Source: Prochlorococcus marinus str. MIT 0918 (lineage in GTDB: Bacteria > Cyanobacteriota > Cyanobacteriia > PCC-6307 > Cyanobiaceae). From it: 64,000 bases of DNA. Numbering within the stretch: the stretch's first letter is position 1; each line of letters begins with the position of its first letter. Positions 33,666 through 54,891 of the stretch are shown here, piece after piece. The notes beneath the pieces are model-generated. The model had not been told where the DNA came from. It saw only the letters and a program-made list of their open reading frames with translations, and did not search any database. The DNA lies in assembly GCF_027359415.1 (NCBI RefSeq), contig NZ_CP114780.1, positions 558,001 to 622,000 on the forward strand. The letters are read 5' to 3'. The position numbers and the translations under genes were made by a program.

Positions 33666-34652
33666 TTAAGGAGAAATGTTTTTAACAGCCGCACGTGCTT
33701 TGGAAAGAATCTCACCATTTAAAGGAACAAACCCTAAAGCAGGAGCCTTCCCTTGAGTATTGTCACTTAATAAGTAGTTAAGCATGGTCTTAATAGCATC
33801 TGCTTTCTCCCTATTACCTCTTTCATATGCAAGTATCCACGTCAAAGTAGCAATAGGATAAGCACCTCTAACACTTGGGTTTGGATTCTGTCCTGCTAAA
33901 TTTTGATCTAATTCAATCCCATTCAATGCTTTAGCACCTGAGTTTGCATCAGGCTTAAGGAATTCACCTGAAAGGTTTTGCAAAGCAGCTGCTTTAACGA
34001 CTCCTTTAATATAAGACTGATTAACATATCCAATAGCCCCAGTTGTATTGCGAATAACACCCGCTACTCCTGCATTACCTTTACCTCCAATACCAATAGG
34101 CCAAGCTACTGATTTCCCTGTTCCTAACGTCCAAGTTTTGGAAAATGCCTGCATTGAATTCGTAAAAGCCTTAGTTGTTCCAGATCCATCTGAACGATGT
34201 ACCCAAGTCAATTTACCTGCAGGACAACCTACTTGACTCCAATTTGTAATTTCACCAATAGCAATACGAACAGCTTGCTCTTGTGTAAGCATAAGGTCGC
34301 AATCGTAGTTGTAACCAAAGGCAATAGTCCCTCCTACCATAGGAATTTGAACTAGGCCACGATCTACTTTTGCTATATCTTTTGCTTTCATTGGATCATC
34401 AGATGCTCCAAAGTTAACCGTTTGATCAATAAAAGCTTTACGGCCAGATCCAGAACCAACCGCCTGGTAATTAACTCTAGGGCCACCTTCTTTTGCTAAA
34501 TCAGAAAACCAACGAGTATAAATTGAAGCTGGGAAAGTCGCTCCTGCGCCGCTTAAACGAACATTTGAATTACTAGAGGAACCACAAGCAGTAATAACAC
34601 TACTCAAAAGAAAAGCAGAAGAAAATAAAAAAAAGTTCCTAACAATAATCAT
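33666..34652 (-). CDS. pstS: Phosphate ABC transporter substrate-binding lipoprotein
   Basis: A 328-residue periplasmic phosphate-binding protein. The lipobox VITAC puts the lipidated cysteine at residue 23. The phosphate loops LSGAGATFPASIYTRW, VGSGSGRKAF, VHRSDGSGTT and the segment GATFP are typical of PstS. It binds phosphate for the PstCAB permease. No pst, pho or other phosphate gene is adjacent, so it is a stand-alone copy in an accessory region. A Pho box could not be identified with confidence in the 145-nt upstream region. Confidence 0.95.
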   Translation of the reverse strand: MIIVRNFFLFSSAFLLSSVITACGSSSNSNVRLSGAGATFPASIYTRWFSDLAKEGGPRVNYQAVGSGSGRKAFIDQTVNFGASDDPMKAKDIAKVDRGLVQIPMVGGTIAFGYNYDCDLMLTQEQAVRIAIGEITNWSQVGCPAGKLTWVHRSDGSGTTKAFTNSMQAFSKTWTLGTGKSVAWPIGIGGKGNAGVAGVIRNTTGAIGYVNQSYIKGVVKAAALQNLSGEFLKPDANSGAKALNGIELDQNLAGQNPNPSVRGAYPIATLTWILAYERGNREKADAIKTMLNYLLSDNTQGKAPALGFVPLNGEILSKARAAVKNISP

Positions 34653-39385: not shown

Positions 39386-39547
39386 TTGGAAGCACAATCA
39401 CAAATAGAAAGAAAATATACATCTACTAAAGAATCACTATTAGGTAATAGTTCAATAAGATTTTTTTGGGAAAGGTTCATTACCATATGGGTGTTATCAT
39501 TGACAATAACTGGAATAATTATGGAAACATTATTTGTGAGCCCATAA
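39386..39547 (+). CDS. Possible TTG-start small membrane protein
   Basis: A 53-residue frame with a hydrophobic centre (FFWERFITIWVLSLTITGII), preceded only by a TTG (or CTG) start; the only in-frame ATG is near the C-terminus. It vaguely recalls a high-light-inducible helix but lacks the usual N-G-R motif. Weak candidate in an otherwise gene-free stretch from 39130 to 39786. Confidence 0.3.
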   Translation: MEAQSQIERKYTSTKESLLGNSSIRFFWERFITIWVLSLTITGIIMETLFVSP

Positions 39548-39786
39548 GTGGAAAAAATCTCTTTTCATAATAAAAGATACAATCATTATAACTACTAGTA
39601 TAAATTCAATAAGTATAAGGTACTAAGGTTAGGTTGTGAAGAAAGTAAAGGATTAATTCTGCATAAAGTATAAATAAAAAAATATCGTAACTATGACTAA
39701 GTGGTTAGAAATTAGTCACATGAAAACAAAAGCTATGTACAAAGATATCAATTCGACTAAAATAAATAAAGAACTCGTAACTGAGA

Positions 39787-40662
39787 ATGAAAAAACAGAA
39801 AAACATAAAAGAAAATCTATTGATTATGATTACACTAGGTTTGTTTTTGCCCTCTTTAGGTTCCTCAATATATAACCAATATCTCTGGAATAGGTTTGAA
39901 GAAGAAAAGTTAGTAATTTTTAGGCCTTGGGTGGAGGATGGCTATCCTCATATACCTCATGATCCTAATAATGATATTGATACTATTGAAGATTTTGTAA
40001 GAAAATCAGAAGAAAAAATAATTAGAATTAAGGATCCTGGCTTAATAGCAAAAACAATTACAGAGCTAGTATCACTTCAGTATAAGCATAGGCATTTAGA
40101 GTATAGATGTTCTTATAATTGGATTGGTTGTTTATTTAGTAAAACTAAAATACCTAAATTAAATGAAGCTCTTTATGTAATAAGACCACGTCATATAGCC
40201 AAAGCACAACATTCTTTTTGTAGTCAACAAGCAATTATTATACAATCAATTTTAAAAGGATTAAATATAAATTATGCAACAATAAGAGTTGTCTGGGATG
40301 ATGTGAATCTTGTAAGGCGTGGGCATTTCTTTACAATAGCTTTTATAGGAGGGGGTAGCTATCTAATGGATTCTGACCTCATGCCAAATATAACCTGGTC
40401 AGGTAATTTCGCGAATAATTTGCTTACAGAGTCTAAAACAGAGACCACTTTTAAAGCTATGTATTCTAAGATAATTAATGAGTCAGACTTACCTAATAAT
40501 ACATATATAACTGCATCAATTAATAATTTTAATTCTTACCCTGCTTCCAAAGGTCTTATGATGCAAAGAATAATTGAACATAGCTCATGGTATGGTTGGA
40601 TTTACTTATTAATCATTTTACTTAGTCAAAGAATACAAATTAACTTATTTAAAAGAAAATAG
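39787..40662 (+). CDS. Transglutaminase-like cysteine protein with membrane anchors
   Basis: A 291-residue protein. The papain/transglutaminase-type triad is visible: Cys145 in QHSFCSQQAIIIQSIL, His180 in RGHFFTIAFIGGG and Asp195 or Asp197 in YLMDSDL. There is an N-terminal membrane anchor (residues ~11-30) and a C-terminal one (~270-284). Proteins of this kind cross-link, hydrolyse or amidate peptides outside the cytoplasm. It lies 174 nt upstream of the DUF4956 operon on the same strand. Activity is inferred; the fold could be an inactive relative. Confidence 0.65.
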   Translation: MKKQKNIKENLLIMITLGLFLPSLGSSIYNQYLWNRFEEEKLVIFRPWVEDGYPHIPHDPNNDIDTIEDFVRKSEEKIIRIKDPGLIAKTITELVSLQYKHRHLEYRCSYNWIGCLFSKTKIPKLNEALYVIRPRHIAKAQHSFCSQQAIIIQSILKGLNINYATIRVVWDDVNLVRRGHFFTIAFIGGGSYLMDSDLMPNITWSGNFANNLLTESKTETTFKAMYSKIINESDLPNNTYITASINNFNSYPASKGLMMQRIIEHSSWYGWIYLLIILLSQRIQINLFKRK

Positions 40663-40836
40663 TCCATAATAATTGTCAAACGACTATTAATTATAATTAT
40701 AAAATATTATTTGAATTCTATAATTTTATTATTATTTGACACAAAGAATGTTAAATATTTTTTTTAAATTTAACTTTATAATATAAAATTCTACCGACAT
40801 GCTATAATCAAATCATTTGATCACCTTTAATAGGTA

Positions 40837-41532
40837 ATGAATGAGCTCCAAGAAAACATTAACTTAGCAAGTAATTCAATTAGCTTAGGTTATATAGATG
40901 GTTTAAAGATATTGCTTTTAGCATTTGTTGCTGGACATTTACTCCGTTTAATTTATAAAAAATACTCGACAACATTTTCCTCTAAGAATAGCTTTGGTAA
41001 TACCATACTTATAGTAACTATAAGCGTCGCTGCACTTATTGCTGTTGTTAAGTCGTCGTTAGCTTTATCACTTGGTCTAGTAGGTGCCTTATCTGTAGTA
41101 AGATTTAGAACAGCAGTTAAAGAGCCTTATAACCTAGCATTTTTACTGTTATCCGTATGTATAGGAATTGCTATAGGAGCTTCTCAATTCGTCTTCGCTA
41201 TGATGACTTTTGCAGTATCAGCTATATGCATCTTTCTTCTATATAACTTATCATCGGCTAAAGGTAATCGTTCAAATGATAAAACAATTGATTTAGACAC
41301 TATTATAGTAAGATTACCTCCAAATTCTGATGTAGAAGCAATTTATAAAACAATAGAATTAAACTCACTTTATTACTCAATACAATCATTTGATCAAACA
41401 AATGGTGAGGATATAACCGCAACATTTAAAATAAAGTTTAGAGATTTAAATGGATTTAATTCTTTAAGGAAATCAATAATGAGTAATAATGAAAAAGCTA
41501 GTCTAACCTTTTTAAACTCTCCATCCTATTGA
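40837..41532 (+). CDS. DUF4956 membrane protein
   Basis: A 231-residue protein with about four membrane helices (residues ~20-40, 50-75, 82-100, 112-140) and a soluble C-terminal domain. The family marker is LGLVGALSVVRFRTAVKEP followed by LAFLLLSVCIGIAIGA. DUF4956 proteins are often found beside VTC-type polyphosphate polymerase and CotH genes, exactly as here. It is the first gene of a tightly coupled operon (4-nt gap to CotH). Role unknown. Confidence 0.85.
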   Translation: MNELQENINLASNSISLGYIDGLKILLLAFVAGHLLRLIYKKYSTTFSSKNSFGNTILIVTISVAALIAVVKSSLALSLGLVGALSVVRFRTAVKEPYNLAFLLLSVCIGIAIGASQFVFAMMTFAVSAICIFLLYNLSSAKGNRSNDKTIDLDTIIVRLPPNSDVEAIYKTIELNSLYYSIQSFDQTNGEDITATFKIKFRDLNGFNSLRKSIMSNNEKASLTFLNSPSY

Positions 41533-41536
41533 TTGC

Positions 41537-44191
41537 ATGAGAAGAATTTTAAGCAATAAAAATAAACTAAAAATTAGTATTAGAAATAGATTTACTAATA
41601 ATATTTTTCAGTCTGCGAAGAATATTTCTCTTGTAATAATATCTATAGAGATTATTCTTTTAGGATCAATTGTTACACAAGAGCCATCGAGAACATCAAT
41701 GGTATTGATGAATAAAATAAAAGATAGAATAAAGGAAAGGATATTATGGCAATTTGATACTTTTTATCCTAGTGACTATTTTAATTATTTAAAAGAATTA
41801 GGAGCATCTATAATACCAATCAATAATGTATTGCCAAGAGCTGACCTTAATCTTAAATACAAATCAATGTTAGCTCTTGATTGTCATAGGAAAACTTCAA
41901 ATATAATAAGAACAGCAGATACAAAATTAATATGTCCAAAGAAAGAATGGCAAGAAGGAGATTTAATAATTAATAAAATTAACTATCCAATAAAGTTAAG
42001 GGCAAAGGGAGACAGGCAAATACATAGGCAAAGTTTCAAGAAGATGAGTTTTAAAGTAGATATAAAGGGAGAAAAGAGATATTTAGGGATGGAAGAGTTC
42101 TCTATGCAAATGCCTATAATAAGGAATTATACAATGGAGATATTTGCATCTAGACTACTTCGTGAATTAAACATAAGTAGTCCTAGGCATAGATATATTA
42201 GGCTATTTATAAATGGAGAATATATTGGAATAAGACATTTAGAAGAAGCATTTTCTAGGGAGCTAGTTGAATCATCTAAAAGGAGATATGGTCCTATATT
42301 TTCATTAGAAGAAAACACATCAATAATATTCGAAGAAAGTCGCTTTGATCTTCACGATTCAAACTATTGGAATAAGAGCGATCTAGAACTTGTGCAAAAA
42401 GTACGAGCTATACTAGAAGAATCTAAAGTTAACCAGGATGTAATTAATAAATACTTTGATCTTGATTTATGGGCAAAATATTTTGCTACTCTTGACGCTC
42501 TTAATTTATTTCACGGAACATATCCTAAAAGTGTAAAATTCTATTTCAACCCTATAACTGGACTAATAGAACCAATATTTTATGATGGTCATATGTATTC
42601 AGGAAGAGGTTTTGATAACTTTAATTTTTACCAATTAATAAACAAAAACAATAATAATCTTGTTTATTGTGGAGATTTTTGTGGAAGAAATAGATTGTTT
42701 TTCAAAAGATTCTTTGGCGATAATAAAAACCCTAATGTAAACTTCTATGAGAGATATATTAAAGAATTAAATCAAATATCATCATTAAGTACGGTAGAGA
42801 ATATTATGACTCCAATATGGAGTAATTTATCAAAAGAGAGAGGATACCTATATAAAAACTTCTGGAAAATAGATCGCCAGGAAAAGGCTGGGATAATGCC
42901 TCATATAGCTCCCTGGGCTGTTGTTAAAGAAAGGCTTAAAAGCATTCGCAATAAAATATACAAGGCAAAAACAGAAAGACCTCTTATAGGAATTGATAAT
43001 AATAAAAATAAAATCATGCTTCTTAATCAATATTCTGAGGTTCCTCAATTATTAAATATATACTGCAATAATGATAAATCTAATTCAATTCTATTGATTA
43101 AAGGAGTTAAGAACTACTATAATATAAATAGTCTAGCTTCATGTGGATTATCAAATGCCTATTACAGTCTAAATGGTGAAAGCAGAAAATCTAAGATAAA
43201 ACTTATCAGTTCATATACAATTAATTTAAATATAAATGAAAACCTATCTAATATTAATTTAATATCAAATAATAGACAAGATTATATCTTTAGTAAAAGA
43301 CTAACTAGATTTACGGAAAATACTTATTTAACTAATAAAGATATTACCTTCGAAAAGTCTGCTGGAATATGCCTAGAACCAAATGTAAATTTATACATAA
43401 AAGATTCTAATGTAATATTCAATGGGAATAAACTGGAACCAAATATAATAACTCGATGCAAAACCAATCAAATAAATAACAATAAATCTGGTTCAGTTGT
43501 TATTCAAGATAGCATTATTAATGGTGGAGAGTTACATATAAGTTACCTAAGTGAACCGAATTTAGAAATGAAGACTCTATATGGATCAATTAATTTTATT
43601 GAATCAAGACTTAAACTTAAGGATCTCAAGGTATTTAACTCTAATTCAGAAGATTCTGTTAATTTCATAAATTCTAATATAGATATAGAAAATATTACAG
43701 TTGAAGATGCAAAATCTGATGCCATAGATTCAGACTATTCTACATTTAAAATAGGTAAAATAATATGCAATAGAATTGGCAATGATTGTCTGGACCTCTC
43801 ATTCTCTAAAGGTTATGTAAAGAATCTAATCGCAAATGCAATAGGAGATAAAGCACTAAGCATAGGAGAAAGCTCAAATATTTCTCTAGAAGATGTTGAA
43901 GTTAAAACTAGTGAAATTGGTATAGTTAGTAAAGATTCATCAAGTTTAGAAATAAAGAATTATAAATATACAGGGGTTAAGTTGCCTATTGCTGCATATA
44001 TCAAAAAAGCAGAGTTTTCCTCACCAAGTATTGAAGTAGAACGAATCAATCCATATAATAAGATTGATTGGTTATTTTCAGCAGATACAAATTTGATAAT
44101 AGAAGGTGTTAAGCAGAACTCTAAAATATCATCACAAAGTATTGAAGATAGGCTATATGGTTCTGAGTATGGAATAAAAACAAAGCGGTAA
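41537..44191 (+). CDS. CotH-like kinase fused to a C-terminal beta-helix
   Basis: An 884-residue protein. After one N-terminal membrane anchor (residues ~25-50), a CotH-type domain covers ~95-480. It has LRAKGDRQIHRQSFKKMSFK, YLGMEEFSMQMPIIRNY, RYIRLFINGEYIGIRHLEE and the metal-site region EPIFYDGH (Asp350). CotH proteins are atypical protein kinases of the spore coat and many envelopes. The last ~280 residues look like a right-handed beta-helix (SDAIDSD, GNDCLDLS, GDKALSIGESS turns). The metal site reads DGH rather than the usual D-x-D. The stop overlaps the VTC start by one base. Confidence 0.8.
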   Translation: MRRILSNKNKLKISIRNRFTNNIFQSAKNISLVIISIEIILLGSIVTQEPSRTSMVLMNKIKDRIKERILWQFDTFYPSDYFNYLKELGASIIPINNVLPRADLNLKYKSMLALDCHRKTSNIIRTADTKLICPKKEWQEGDLIINKINYPIKLRAKGDRQIHRQSFKKMSFKVDIKGEKRYLGMEEFSMQMPIIRNYTMEIFASRLLRELNISSPRHRYIRLFINGEYIGIRHLEEAFSRELVESSKRRYGPIFSLEENTSIIFEESRFDLHDSNYWNKSDLELVQKVRAILEESKVNQDVINKYFDLDLWAKYFATLDALNLFHGTYPKSVKFYFNPITGLIEPIFYDGHMYSGRGFDNFNFYQLINKNNNNLVYCGDFCGRNRLFFKRFFGDNKNPNVNFYERYIKELNQISSLSTVENIMTPIWSNLSKERGYLYKNFWKIDRQEKAGIMPHIAPWAVVKERLKSIRNKIYKAKTERPLIGIDNNKNKIMLLNQYSEVPQLLNIYCNNDKSNSILLIKGVKNYYNINSLASCGLSNAYYSLNGESRKSKIKLISSYTINLNINENLSNINLISNNRQDYIFSKRLTRFTENTYLTNKDITFEKSAGICLEPNVNLYIKDSNVIFNGNKLEPNIITRCKTNQINNNKSGSVVIQDSIINGGELHISYLSEPNLEMKTLYGSINFIESRLKLKDLKVFNSNSEDSVNFINSNIDIENITVEDAKSDAIDSDYSTFKIGKIICNRIGNDCLDLSFSKGYVKNLIANAIGDKALSIGESSNISLEDVEVKTSEIGIVSKDSSSLEIKNYKYTGVKLPIAAYIKKAEFSSPSIEVERINPYNKIDWLFSADTNLIIEGVKQNSKISSQSIEDRLYGSEYGIKTKR

Positions 44192-44850
44192 TGCGATACG
44201 AACGAAAATTCTCTATAAATAATACATCTCTAAGGCATTTAGATTACTTTATGATCTCAAGAGGTTTTACACAGCATTACCCTGATAGAGTTATATCTAG
44301 CTTTTATTATGATACTCTATCGTTTGATTTATTTAATCAATCAGAAGATGGAATATCAAAAAGAAACAAATATAGGATTAGATACTATAATTATAATTTT
44401 AAAAGCTTAAAATACGAAAACAAAAAGAAGATTTCTGATTCCGGATCTAAGCTTACATTAGATCAGACATTTATTCAAAAATATAACTGCTATGATGTAT
44501 ATTTTAATAAGCCATTCAAACAACTTAATAATATTGTAATTCCAGAATGTCTTCACATTAAATACTTTCCTAAAAGTTATATTGAATACAAAAGATCATA
44601 TTATCTTTCATCTGATTATAAGTTAAGAATTACACTAGACCATCAAATATATTTCGGTGCAATACAAACCAAATCAAAAAAGGTTATAGTTTCTAGAAGA
44701 GTTGGCAATCCAACAGACGTACTGGAAATTAAATATGATAATTTTTATGAGCCTGAAGAAAATTTCATCAATGAACTTTCAACAAACTTCAACATGATCT
44801 TAAGTAGGCATTCTAAGTACTGCAATTCAATTAACCTTTTATATAATTAA
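44191..44850 (+). CDS. VTC-domain polyphosphate polymerase-like protein
   Basis: A 219-residue VTC domain, a triphosphate tunnel fold. Basic and acidic tunnel residues appear in MRYERKFSI, SSFYYDT, KYRIRYYNY, KYENKKK, YIEYKRSYYLSSDYKLRITL and VLEIKYDN. Yeast Vtc4 uses this domain to make polyphosphate from ATP; bacterial stand-alone VTC domains occur with DUF4956 and CotH. Membrane attachment would be through DUF4956. Polyphosphate synthesis here is inference; other nucleotide or triphosphate substrates are possible. Start overlaps the CotH stop (TAATG). Confidence 0.82.
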   Translation: MRYERKFSINNTSLRHLDYFMISRGFTQHYPDRVISSFYYDTLSFDLFNQSEDGISKRNKYRIRYYNYNFKSLKYENKKKISDSGSKLTLDQTFIQKYNCYDVYFNKPFKQLNNIVIPECLHIKYFPKSYIEYKRSYYLSSDYKLRITLDHQIYFGAIQTKSKKVIVSRRVGNPTDVLEIKYDNFYEPEENFINELSTNFNMILSRHSKYCNSINLLYN

Positions 44851-44860
44851 ATTTTAGGTA

Positions 44861-46336
44861 ATGAGTTTCAATAGCCCTGCTTATGTTGTTTTTCTAACTA
44901 TTATAATATTAATATATCTACTTGTAAAAAAAGAACAACGTTTACTATTCCTTTTAGGCGTTAGTTATCTATTTTATAGTCTAATATCTTTAAAGTTTGT
45001 ATTAATTTTATTTCTTATTACTGTAATTAGCTATGTAATAGGTCAATTAATTGAAAACTCCCATGGCAAAAAGAAATTAATCTACATTAATACAGGGATT
45101 AGTTTCATATTATTATCACTAGTTAGCTTAAAATACTTAAATTTTCTATCCTCAGGAATCAACTTAATAACTGGTAATAATTCAAATAGCATTGTTTTCT
45201 TTGAAATGGCAGGTATATCTTTTATTTCTTTTCATATTATATCCTATCTTTTAGATATTTATTATGAAACAAGCCCCTCAGAAAAATCCTTTATAAAATT
45301 CTCTACATACATCTCATTTTTTCCTAAGCTATTACAAGGTCCAATAGAAAGGGCTGATAACTTTATACCTCAATTAAATAATCTTAAAAAAATAGAGATT
45401 AATAATATAGAAAAAGGTAGCTTTATTATTTTATGGGGACTATTTCTTAAAACAGTAGTGGCTGATAGAATATCTATGTATATTAATCCTGTATATCAAG
45501 ACCCAACAAATGCTTCAGGAGTAGCTACTATAATTGCTATTTTAGCCTATACCTTACAAATATATTTTGATTTTGCAGGTTATACAAAAATTGCTATTGG
45601 CTCAGCTCAACTTTTTGGTATAACAATTTTAGAAAACTTTAACAATCCATTAGTAGCTGTTTCTTGTACAGACTTTTGGAGAAGATGGCATATATCATTA
45701 TCTTCTTTCTTACGTGATTACTTATTCTTACCTTTAAGTCATCAATTTAGGCATAAAGAAAAACTAGGTTTAGTATTAGCAACATTAATTACTTTTATAC
45801 TAGCTGGATTATGGCATGGCCCTTCTATTACTTTTATTTTATTTGGAACATTTCATGGTATATGGCTCTCTCTAGAAATTATCTTTAGAAAGAATAAAAT
45901 TTTTAATAAGTTAACTATAAATTTACCAATAATTAATAAAATAAGGTTATATTTAATGAGGCTATTAACTTATTTAGGTATTAGCTTGTCATTCATTTTC
46001 TTTAGGTCTGAGAATTTAAATATAGTTTTTAGTATTTTTAATAATCTATATATAGGTTTACGGCAGCTAATATCTTCAACGAATACTTCCCTTAATGATA
46101 TGATCAGTATATTTATAAGTTCAGAATCAAAAGAATATCCATGGTTTACTGTTTTGATTAACACATTAATACTTTTAATTAGTTTTTTTATAATATATTT
46201 AGCAAGAAAATACTCGCTTGGTTCTAAACTACAACATACCAAAAGAATAAATTCCTATATCTGTGCCCAACTGCTAATCTTAACTATAATAAGTTTTGGT
46301 ATTGTTTCATCTCCCTCCTTTGTATACGTGTTCTAG
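44861..46336 (+). CDS. MBOAT O-acyltransferase (AlgI/DltB-like)
   Basis: A 491-residue membrane protein with about ten helices. The MBOAT signature is FWRRWHISLSSFLRDYLF and LAGLWHGPSITFILFGTFHG, whose first histidine (near residue 318) is the proposed active site. AlgI and DltB use such enzymes to pass acyl groups across the membrane to alginate or teichoic acid. It follows the VTC gene after 10 nt and overlaps the SGNH gene by one base, the arrangement expected for a polymer O-acetylation pair. Confidence 0.93.
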   Translation: MSFNSPAYVVFLTIIILIYLLVKKEQRLLFLLGVSYLFYSLISLKFVLILFLITVISYVIGQLIENSHGKKKLIYINTGISFILLSLVSLKYLNFLSSGINLITGNNSNSIVFFEMAGISFISFHIISYLLDIYYETSPSEKSFIKFSTYISFFPKLLQGPIERADNFIPQLNNLKKIEINNIEKGSFIILWGLFLKTVVADRISMYINPVYQDPTNASGVATIIAILAYTLQIYFDFAGYTKIAIGSAQLFGITILENFNNPLVAVSCTDFWRRWHISLSSFLRDYLFLPLSHQFRHKEKLGLVLATLITFILAGLWHGPSITFILFGTFHGIWLSLEIIFRKNKIFNKLTINLPIINKIRLYLMRLLTYLGISLSFIFFRSENLNIVFSIFNNLYIGLRQLISSTNTSLNDMISIFISSESKEYPWFTVLINTLILLISFFIIYLARKYSLGSKLQHTKRINSYICAQLLILTIISFGIVSSPSFVYVF

Positions 46337-47253
46337 TGTTTTTAAACTCAATTAAAAGAATTTGCCTATTCTCTTTTATTCCAGTCGGTTTTCTAATTTC
46401 TAGTGAAGTAATTCTAAGGGTTGGAGAGTCTGATATGAATAAAAGGACAAGAGAGATATATGAGGAGATTTTCAGAAATAATCCTAAAAGAGATTATCTT
46501 ATACTAGGAAGTTCAGATTCACTATGTTCAATAGCTCCTTCAAAAGTTAATCCTAAATTAAATATTTTTAATTTATCAATAGACGGCACTAGTCCATCTT
46601 ATAATGAAGAACTTTATAATAAATATCTTTTAAACAAAGTTCTTGCAGATAATTTGATTTATGGAATAAGTCCAGCTTCATTCATTCATAGAGAGAGAAA
46701 AATCGCAATTGATGAAAGATTTGTTGGCTATCGTGGTAATTATTTAAAAAATACTATAGGTTTTATAAGCAGACTTAGAATACTGAATGTTCGTTCAATT
46801 TTAGAGAAAGTAATAGCATCAAGTAAAAGGATTAACAGTCAAAATATATCTGGGCCAGATTTTAGTAAATATGACAATGGTTATTTGCCATGTAGTACTA
46901 AGGGAGATTTTTTATATAAGTTAAATAATGACATTCCAGAGATTAATCACGATGAAAAAGAATCCTTAAGGAGATTATTAATAAAGGTGAAATCTAATGG
47001 ATACAAAACAATTATTTTAAGTCTGCCTACACCCTATAATTATTATAAAAAAGAAGATTTAGATCATTTCCATAATGACCTGATGTCTCTAGCTAATGAT
47101 GTTGGGGCAATTCTGGTTAGAGGAGATAATATTCACAAGAAATTCTTACAAGATAAGGAAAACTTTTCAGATAATGTTCACCAAACAGAAAAAGGTTCTT
47201 TTTCATTCTCTAAAATCTTAAATAAATTACTAAAAGAAAATAGTGTAAATTAA
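46336..47253 (+). CDS. SGNH-hydrolase-like partner of the acyltransferase
   Basis: A 305-residue protein with a GTG start overlapping the MBOAT stop. It has an N-terminal signal-anchor (~8-25), then an SGNH fold: block I LILGSSDSLCSIAP (Ser near 60), IFNLSIDGTSPSYNEELY, and the C-terminal catalytic pair in SDNVHQTEKG (Asp279, His282). It resembles AlgJ/AlgX/DltD, which finish transfer of acetyl groups to extracytoplasmic polymers. The same operon therefore has both membrane and periplasmic halves of an O-acylation system. Confidence 0.75.
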   Translation: MFLNSIKRICLFSFIPVGFLISSEVILRVGESDMNKRTREIYEEIFRNNPKRDYLILGSSDSLCSIAPSKVNPKLNIFNLSIDGTSPSYNEELYNKYLLNKVLADNLIYGISPASFIHRERKIAIDERFVGYRGNYLKNTIGFISRLRILNVRSILEKVIASSKRINSQNISGPDFSKYDNGYLPCSTKGDFLYKLNNDIPEINHDEKESLRRLLIKVKSNGYKTIILSLPTPYNYYKKEDLDHFHNDLMSLANDVGAILVRGDNIHKKFLQDKENFSDNVHQTEKGSFSFSKILNKLLKENSVN

Positions 47254-53892: not shown

Positions 53893-54891
53893 ATGGAAGC
53901 ACTATGTTCTCTTGATGATAAAAACATCCTGGTAACAGGTGGTGCTGGTTTTATAGGAAGTCACCTTATAGATTTAATTGTCAAGCAAGAAAATCCAAAG
54001 AAAGTAGTAGTAGCATCAAATTTTTTTCTTGGCAGGTTAGCGAATTTATCAGAAGCAAAAGAATCATTTCCAGATTTAATCATTGAAAGGTGTGATGTTG
54101 GTGATTTCGAAGAAATTAATGAGGTGATATTGAATCACTCTATAGATATTGTTTTTAATTTAGCCACCATACCTCTTATTTCATCCTTAACAAAACCCGA
54201 GTGGTCACTAAAGAAAAATTTAGACATGACGATTAATATTTGTAAGCTATTACGCGAAGAAAAGTTTGCATCTCTAATCCAATATTCATCCTCAGAAGCA
54301 TTAGGAACTGTTAGGAAACTTCCAATGGGAAATGATCACCCTAGTTTCCCAGAAACTCCATATGCTGCTTCAAAATTAGCCACAGATCACATAGCACTTT
54401 CTTATTTCAACACCTTTGGGTGTGATGTTGCTGTAATAAGACCATTTAATCAATACGGTCCGAGACAAAATGCACATAAATTTGCAGCGTTAATACCAAT
54501 ATTAATTAAGAAAATGCGCAAAGATGAAGATATATTTATTTCTGGCGATGGCCTTCAAACAAGAGATTTTATCTTTGTAAAAGATACAGTTAAAGCAACA
54601 TTAGAATTATTTAAACATCCTCAAACCCGAGGTAAAATAATTCATATTGGCAGTGGGAAAGAAATAAGTGTTTTGTCAGTTGTTAAAAAAGTTGCTTCAT
54701 TAATGAATTACACAAAAGAGTTTAAGTTTATCGAAAAGAGAAAAGGAGATGTTAGAAGACATTGTGCTGATATTAGTGAAGCTAATCAACTTATTAATTG
54801 GACACCTCAAACTAATTTCAATGAAGGCATAAAAGAGACTGTTGAATGGTATAAATCACATCCAGAGGCTTTTCAAGCAAGCATTTTATAA
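53893..54891 (+). CDS. Extended SDR, nucleotide-sugar epimerase/dehydratase-like
   Basis: A 332-residue NAD-dependent extended SDR. Cofactor site VTGGAGFIGSHLIDLI, catalytic YAASK, a YSSSEALG loop and RPFNQYGPRQNAHKFAALIP for the sugar pocket. It is close to UDP-sugar 4-epimerase, GDP-mannose dehydratase and uronate decarboxylase relatives; the substrate cannot be decided. It may feed polysaccharide for the envelope operon at 40-47 kb, but this is speculation. It is not part of an operon. Confidence 0.85.
   Translation: MEALCSLDDKNILVTGGAGFIGSHLIDLIVKQENPKKVVVASNFFLGRLANLSEAKESFPDLIIERCDVGDFEEINEVILNHSIDIVFNLATIPLISSLTKPEWSLKKNLDMTINICKLLREEKFASLIQYSSSEALGTVRKLPMGNDHPSFPETPYAASKLATDHIALSYFNTFGCDVAVIRPFNQYGPRQNAHKFAALIPILIKKMRKDEDIFISGDGLQTRDFIFVKDTVKATLELFKHPQTRGKIIHIGSGKEISVLSVVKKVASLMNYTKEFKFIEKRKGDVRRHCADISEANQLINWTPQTNFNEGIKETVEWYKSHPEAFQASIL

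Follow-up and report, generated by a model that had tools for sequence, protein, structure and literature searches.

What would a set of genes for polymerizing, phosphorylating, acylating and cross-linking a substance outside the membrane be doing in a picocyanobacterium? The question is raised by six genes of Prochlorococcus marinus str. MIT 0918, at positions 39787–47253 of a 64,000-nucleotide stretch (contig NZ_CP114780.1, positions 558,001–622,000; hereafter the window), which an initial annotation had read as one envelope locus. The window lies within a single 1.79 Mb contig and the genome is 99.99% complete. All six open reading frames (ORFs) are present at the positions first given, on the + strand:

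39787..40662, +: transglutaminase-like protein with hydrophobic ends, in a strain-specific block and of doubtful operon membership (DUF553 E=0.015, below the cut-off)
40837..41532, +: DUF4956 membrane protein with a C-terminal ferredoxin/ACT-like domain (Pfam, model)
41537..44191, +: CotH-like protein with an N-terminal hydrophobic anchor, a CotH fold and a C-terminal right-handed beta-helix (Pfam, model)
44191..44850, +: VTC-type polyphosphate polymerase domain without a membrane segment (Pfam, conserved residues)
44861..46336, +: DltB/AlgI-type MBOAT O-acyltransferase (Pfam, GLWHG motif with His319)
46336..47253, +: putative SGNH-like partner in acyl transfer, with GSSDS at 58 and DNVH at 279 (a related pair occurs in genome G001)

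The tight spacing first described for the last five ORFs is real: 4 nt lie between the DUF4956 stop (41532) and the CotH start (41537), CotH and VTC overlap (−1 nt) through TAATG, VTC and MBOAT are 10 nt apart, and MBOAT and SGNH overlap (−1 nt) through TAGTG. The transglutaminase-like ORF lies 174 nt upstream of DUF4956 and is uncoupled from the other five.

Our favoured answer, to which we give a probability of roughly 0.4, is that the locus is an acquired islet for the modification of an envelope polymer and consists of two modules, a DUF4956–CotH–VTC trio and an MBOAT–SGNH acyl-transfer pair. The initial proposal of an extracytoplasmic modification locus in which this pair is joined to the trio is plausible.

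DUF4956, CotH and VTC form a recurrent trio

DUF4956, CotH and VTC are the core of the locus; the trio was already known, and its recurrence in other bacteria, noted in the initial annotation, extends across phyla. Among 292 cyanobacterial genomes, CotH was found in 12, VTC in 11 and DUF4956 in 10; all 10 DUF4956 carriers have VTC, and 10 of the 11 VTC carriers have a Pfam CotH match. The exceptions are G220 and G239, with CotH only (below the cut-off in G239), and G132, a fragmented assembly without DUF4956. The CotH protein of G056, missed by Pfam, was recovered by sequence search. Co-occurrence of the trio, assessed by Fisher tests whose p-values are merely indicative because the genomes are related, is far from chance. 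A search with the window CotH sequence gave matches in 7 of 101 genomes of the family. Full trios are present in the MIT 0918 genome (two), G040 (two), G010, G078 and G056, and also in G345; G031 has a rearranged set and G041 has CotH–VTC only, at a contig end. The second trio of the MIT 0918 genome, at 327.6–331.6 kb, is divergent and has neither MBOAT nor SGNH.

This second trio (L015:7570-11607) belongs to a lineage separate from that of the window trio, and the next gene, on the opposite strand, encodes a metallophosphoesterase domain.

Outside this genome, trios are found in further picocyanobacteria and in SAR11, Bacteroidota, Chloroflexota and Clostridia. Among 14 control genomes, all three families were found in Corynebacterium glutamicum and Methanosarcina acetivorans (by presence, not adjacency), VTC and DUF4956 in Bacteroides ihuae, and CotH alone in Bacillus subtilis. 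The locus offers a concrete setting in which to test this multi-phylum trio, the archaeal case being one of presence alone. The SAR11 assemblies with a trio are of about 1 Mb, possibly partial; these, together with the strain-specific character of the block, which is no kept core locus, weaken the initial impression that such genes are unexpected in a tiny genome.

A sample of 80 GTDB loci from many phyla holds DUF4956 by construction and so gives the frequency of VTC and CotH beside DUF4956, not the converse; most named records are metagenome-assembled genomes (MAGs), and many of the loci are interrupted by contig ends. Within 10 kb of DUF4956, these best 80 of at least 588 loci contain both partners in 45 cases, CotH only in 15, VTC only in 14 and neither in 6. 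Where at least 6 kb is available on each side (n = 41), the figures are 29 with both, 7 with VTC only, 5 with CotH only and 0 with neither; with 3.5 kb on each side (n = 47) they are 31, 9, 6 and 1. Hidden Markov models (HMMs) detect all three families in 54 of 99 scanned loci, many of the others ending at contig edges. The DUF4956, VTC, CotH and MBOAT models were seeded with the window proteins and iterated over these same loci, so that relatives of MBOAT, SGNH and the transglutaminase-like protein may escape. Across 42 loci the trio proteins co-diverge, with distance correlations of 0.75 to 0.88 that 0 of 2000 permutations reached.

The trio has been reported next to Gram-positive pel genes (PMC7112168), and according to the available text of a 2025 study, its analyses found the arrangement nowhere outside the Pel locus (PMC12345266). 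A PelG search of 52 assemblies selected as trio carriers (the genomes of 41 of the 80 loci and 11 others, many of them incomplete MAGs, G041 displaying just CotH–VTC at its contig end) gave no match in any of them, the complete MIT 0918 genome included; in the 14 control genomes it gave one match, in Thermotoga maritima. Trios without PelG broaden the view of that study as its available text presents it. The accessory genes SIR_1592–1594 of Streptococcus intermedius resemble the window in having the CotH, VTC (PPP) and DUF4956 families side by side. Combining the two papers, our reading is that the MgtC/ACT membrane protein SIR_1592 is DUF4956; the streptococcal membrane protein is described with four transmembrane segments and an intracellular ACT domain, and its CotH as secreted (PMC7112168, PMC12345266). 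Unlike this cluster, the window genome has no PelG match, its CotH is of the His type with a beta-helix instead of FN3, and an MBOAT–SGNH pair comes next.

The open-licence literature searched gave no account of trio function, and a joint text match for CotH and Prochlorococcus (PMC13131479) is to an author's name only. The twisted-stalk sfz cluster has a CotH domain in Sfz6; its main text does not contain ‘VTC', ‘DUF' or ‘polyphosphate', and it is not clearly the same system (PMC8250860).

A VTC polymerase with conserved catalytic residues

The VTC protein (219 aa; Pfam E 2.3e-23, 83.5 bits against a cut-off of 23) gave nothing useful in a single-sequence search of solved structures; a profile built from nine picocyanobacterial VTCs matches structures of eukaryotic VTC with E values between 1.5e-8 and 0.01. 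In yeast Vtc4, R264 and R266 are reported to be essential for synthesis (PMC8749416). R62 and R64 of the window protein align with these two residues and are kept in 34/34 and 33/34 (one X) relatives, respectively. K6, E76, K78, R135, R146, E179 and K209 are conserved in 33–34 of the 34, and were assigned from a wider list of Vtc4 residues that we take to be catalytic. The catalytic residues are intact, and synthesis of polyphosphate from ATP is predicted. Since the genome also carries a PPK match, VTC is not needed merely for polyphosphate synthesis, and the existence of two such enzymes points to a specific purpose for VTC.

The window protein shares with the eukaryotic VTC complex (Vtc4) the VTC domain, the two Arg that bind ATP and further conserved positions, and differs from it in having neither SPX nor a fused membrane domain; by a crude hydropathy measure, a segment resembling a membrane span is found in 0 of 71 VTCs. 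The membrane part of the system would be provided by a separate protein, DUF4956. VTC is treated for eukaryotes only in the available text of PMC10657179 and PMC7332688.

A CotH protein with an altered active site and a conserved beta-helix

The CotH protein (Pfam E 5.6e-10, 39.7 bits against a cut-off of 23.8) gave nothing useful in a single-sequence search of solved structures, and its architecture emerges from a structural model (predicted local distance difference test (pLDDT) value of 76.7 and predicted template modelling (pTM) value of 0.76). Residues 98–504 match Bacillus cereus CotH 5jd9 (Z 27.3, root mean square deviation (r.m.s.d.) of 3.3 over 325 aligned residues). Residues from about 578 to 866 form the right-handed beta-helix that had been foreseen from the sequence; its top match is AlgG (Z 23.9, r.m.s.d. 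of 3.5 over 285 aligned residues), and further matches include AlgE modules, tailspikes and polysaccharide lyases. A hydrophobic N terminus is found by the crude hydropathy measure in 71 of 77 complete CotH ORFs.

Changing either D228 or D251 is reported to inactivate B. subtilis CotH (PMC7821199). By our own count the two motif Asp of 5jd9 are 23 residues apart, as are D228 and D251. In the window protein, His326 aligns by profile with the catalytic Asp of D-class proteins (D228 in B. subtilis). Alignment A3, of 32 long CotHs hand-picked from the GTDB loci, has His at this position in 30, Glu in 1 and Trp in 1, with Asp at neither 326 nor 327 in any of the 32; a nearby Asp occupies column 325 in 2 and column 329 in 6. 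The metal-binding-type Asp (D251 in B. subtilis) corresponds to Asp350 and is Asp in 26 and Glu in 6. The sequences excluded from A3 include truncated ones and the long CotHs of L098, L108, L127, L128 and L136; neither Asp nor His is clearly recognizable at the catalytic position in L098, L127 and L128, and L108 and L136 have an Asp nearby. The MIT 0918 genome has one further Pfam CotH match, the CotH of the second trio, and the residue at its catalytic position is Lys.

These substitutions bear on the possibility that the trio is a canonical secreted kinase, in which CotH would phosphorylate envelope proteins or glycans in the manner of Bacillus CotH or Fam20C, with exported polyphosphate or scarce ATP. 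The fold match to 5jd9 and the retained metal-binding-type Asp agree with such a role, as do clostridial, Chloroflexota and other loci with D-class CotHs; in alignment A6, whose 12 sequences were chosen for possessing the D motif, both Asp are kept in 12/12. Against it stand the His at the catalytic position of 30/32 long CotHs, the window protein included, with no Asp at the next residue, and Ser332 of the window protein, where 24/32 have Asn. Operons L064, L083 and L092 moreover combine a D-class and an H-class CotH, whose roles probably differ. We regard a canonical kinase as unlikely, and of the activities initially proposed, phosphorylation loses its footing with His in one CotH of this genome and Lys in the other. 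The integrity of the active sites accordingly holds in one half only, the VTC residues being intact and the CotH site atypical.

Compared with the Bacillus spore-coat kinase (5jd9/5jda), the window protein has in common the overall fold and the DFG-like Asp, and differs in its His for the catalytic Asp, its N-terminal hydrophobic anchor and its extra beta-helix, as well as in its VTC and DUF4956 partners, both absent from the B. subtilis control genome. Conservation in the beta-helix equals or exceeds that in the CotH part (the fraction held by the commonest residue averages 0.447 versus 0.394). Its conserved Asp/Lys residues (706, 728, 731, 733, 750, 753, 771, 772, 799, 800, 823 and 824) recur at about one set per coil and are likely, judging from the alignment, to line a binding or catalytic groove. 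These data point to a CotH family in which the active site is altered and a beta-helix of polysaccharide type is conserved. The favoured view of the protein is that it acts on a polysaccharide and is built on an altered kinase scaffold; ‘kinase' is a doubtful name for it, and ‘glycan-modifying' is preferred.

The tight operons L064, L083 and L092 encode, besides the D-class CotH and the His-class beta-helix CotH, a Wzy_C O-antigen-ligase-like protein (typed by Pfam in L064 and by clustering in L083 and L092) and a phosphoesterase; that of L092 also contains an MBOAT.

DUF4956 as the membrane component

DUF4956 (Pfam PF16316, E 1.1e-13, 51.8 bits against a cut-off of 30.6) was modelled with a pLDDT value of 84 and has helices at 19–43, 50–71, 74–90, 97–114 and 118–143, followed at about 149–231 by the C-terminal domain, ferredoxin/ACT-like by fold search. 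VGALS and RFR of the motif VGALS..RFR are invariant in 44/44 aligned sequences, and R-x-R (x = F, Y, L or W) is present in 81/81 HMM matches. DUF4956 may provide passage through the membrane, as the sole multi-span member between a soluble polymerase and a secreted protein. The eukaryotic VTC membrane domains are not among its fold matches; the searches covered the C-terminal domain only and exclude nothing.

A different role is suggested by the ACT/ferredoxin-like domain together with a weak similarity to MgtC (E 0.034) and the pseudokinase-like character of CotH: DUF4956 and VTC might together sense phosphate in the cytosol and thereby regulate an external pseudokinase that binds a polymer, with no phosphate exported. 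In S. intermedius, deletion of CotH or SIR_1592 is reported to alter the amount of Pel and to cut aggregation by >50% in sputum medium, the SIR_1592 deletion raising Pel and the CotH deletion lowering it (PMC12345266), and these opposite shifts would suit a regulator. Conservation of the VTC catalytic residues in 33–34/34 relatives, suggesting turnover, argues the other way, as does the commonest extra neighbour of the trio, a calcineurin-like phosphoesterase that is mostly secreted. We consider phosphate sensing a rather doubtful possibility.

This phosphoesterase is found in 18 of the 99 loci, 16 of them with a full trio, and 17 of 19 such proteins have a hydrophobic N terminus; several trios also adjoin sugar-nucleotide, glycosyltransferase or ligase genes. 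Secreted phosphoesterases nearby, trios in picocyanobacterial and SAR11 genomes, and the large extracellular or periplasmic phosphate buffer reported in both groups (PMC4525184, PMC7250820) could be taken to mean that, in ocean bacteria limited by phosphate, VTC and DUF4956 lay down a periplasmic polyphosphate store, held on a surface glycan by the CotH–beta-helix protein. The window CotH matches only 7/101 family genomes, too few for a general buffer, and gut or rumen Clostridia (by record title) also have trios, which a phosphate-poor ocean does not explain. Such a store is very unlikely as the function of the locus.

A family typed through L059 as inorganic pyrophosphatase lies near the trios of L058, L059, L065, L071 and L099, and its L071 member directly follows VTC. 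A histidine kinase and a response regulator (typed through L116) stand beside the clostridial trios of L109, L114, L116, L124, L125 and L126.

The acyl-transfer pair is an added module

MBOAT matches Pfam (E 1.4e-22, 80.9 bits against a cut-off of 27) and scores 173.4 bits with the NCBIfam DltB equivalog, below its cut-off of 375. The putative SGNH protein matched no Pfam SGNH model, its only Pfam match being sub-threshold DUF1574 (0.0097); its assignment derives from the GSSDS and DNVH motifs and from the pairing in G001. The pair recurs without the trio in picocyanobacterium G001 (53% and 41% identity), whose SGNH partner has the D..H motif and not the GSSDS form. Relative to the trio, MBOAT–SGNH is an added module. 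The initial annotation had looked to the same gene order elsewhere: the trio genes do co-occur, and the full five-gene order was found in 0/100 other family genomes, many of them incomplete. MBOAT relatives lie near the trio in 4 of 98 other loci (L063, L074, L092 and L095, all Bacteroidota by record title); in L063 the MBOAT follows VTC by 10 nt, and an AlgX-like gene comes next. AlgX-like neighbours were recognized by Pfam in L063 and L074 and by clustering in L095.

The lack of the five-gene order elsewhere in the family, the G001 pair without a trio and the second trio without MBOAT would suit an accidental cluster, in which a mobile trio has come to lie beside an unrelated acyl-transfer pair and the transglutaminase-like gene without common function. 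We find this quite improbable in view of the 10 and −1 nt gaps, and of the MBOAT and AlgX-like genes that accompany Bacteroidota trios separately, in four and three loci, respectively.

The alginate and Dlt proteins (AlgI, AlgJ/AlgX, AlgG and DltB/DltD) have in common with the window the combination of an MBOAT and a partner that is SGNH-like (putatively so in the window) and, in AlgG, the beta-helix fold. The window differs in an MBOAT below the DltB cut-off, a beta-helix without the DPHD motif and the absence of any alginate synthesis gene among the scanned flanking proteins.

The transglutaminase-like protein stands apart. Its identity is weakly supported by a DUF553 score of 15.2 bits (cut-off 20.5, not reached) and by Cys145, after which a His and an Asp can be recognized in the sequence. 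No match to it was found in the other 100 family genomes or near the other 98 loci. Cross-linking, which had been attributed to this uncoupled gene, is not supported.

A strain-specific block

Five congeneric genomes were fetched out of 11 others matching the left anchor, glutathione peroxidase, which was found in 5/5 stretches; each has at least one right anchor, variously TrkA/ion-channel, AhpC-like, YchF, HlyD or the 50634–51182 gene. The six genes are missing at the same place in all five stretches compared. From the peroxidase, TrkA lies 3.4 kb away in L178 and 12.2 kb in the window; the 50634 gene 4.0 kb in L179 and 11.5 kb in the window; and YchF 4.2 kb in L177, 2.8 kb in L181 and 17.1 kb in the window. 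Because these distances differ so between relatives, everything between the peroxidase and the right anchor can be called variable. GC content is 27.7% in the block and 33.4% in the rest of the window. The block was probably gained by this strain rather than lost from all relatives.

A defence island was rejected, PADLOC having matched 0/6 proteins, and so was a viral origin: viral contigs gave a single relative of DUF4956 (38% identical across about 110 residues) and none of the transglutaminase-like protein.

A two-module model

In the two-module islet that we favour, the soluble VTC would make polyphosphate from ATP in the cytosol, and DUF4956 would dock VTC and pass polyphosphate, or its energy, over the inner membrane. 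The anchored, extracytoplasmic CotH–beta-helix protein would bind a surface polysaccharide through its beta-helix and act on it, its CotH-fold domain serving as phosphate acceptor/transferase or as sensor. MBOAT–SGNH would acylate the same polymer, as in AlgI/AlgJ/AlgX or DltB/DltD. Export of polyphosphate through DUF4956, the glycan as target and a target common to both modules are the parts of this scheme that we infer. In its favour are the close spacing of the five genes, the co-occurrence and co-divergence of the trio, the hydropathy of CotH and VTC, the VTC residues and the PPK match, the phosphoesterase and sugar-related neighbours of trios, the AlgG-like beta-helix, the Bacteroidota loci with MBOAT, and the changes in Pel and aggregation reported for the S. 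intermedius CotH and SIR_1592 deletions (PMC12345266).

A bolder version, which we hold to be improbable, is a new class of extracytoplasmic phosphotransfer: VTC-made polyphosphate threaded through DUF4956 would be the phosphate donor outside, where there is no ATP, and the conserved CotH His in place of the kinase Asp may form a phosphohistidine and modify the glycan held by the beta-helix. In B. subtilis, CotH acts within the cytosol of the mother cell, with ATP at hand; that this genome has a CotH but no VTC or DUF4956 match is a consistent hint for polyphosphate as donor. A role of polyphosphate beyond the membrane, as donor or as product, would if true explain how kinase-like enzymes function once secreted, with no ATP available.

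Several observations weigh against the two-module islet. Genes simply inherited together would be expected to co-diverge too. The CotH active site is altered, to judge from the alignments, and AlgG fold similarity by itself demonstrates no function. DPHD is the catalytic motif of the mannuronan C5-epimerases (AlgG/AlgE); it is absent from the window CotH protein and from all 32 aligned. The membrane part of DUF4956 has no solved match, fold searches having tested the C-terminal domain only, and the channel idea derives from topology and a basic motif. In S. intermedius, Pel was still produced in all four accessory mutants, under a heading stating that the genes are not required, and the available text does not report lower aggregation for the VTC deletion (PMC12345266). 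No polysaccharide synthesis cluster was seen beside the window locus, 0/14 scanned flanking proteins being a glycosyltransferase above the cut-off. Finally, the four Bacteroidota MBOAT loci represent perhaps one or two events; with MBOAT near only 4/98 other loci, a target shared by the two modules is a guess.

Flanking genes

The scan of the 14 flanking proteins identified one nucleoside diphosphate (NDP)-sugar epimerase/dehydratase (53893–54891), 6.6 kb downstream. On the left side, the block retains the trace of a further gene:

39407..39565, +: what erosion has left of the 3′ end of a gene whose length is about 200 aa in the congeneric stretches L177, L179 and L181

About 5 kb upstream of the block, 33666–34652 encodes a periplasmic substrate-binding protein of the PBP_like_2 family, possibly of the phosphate-binding type.

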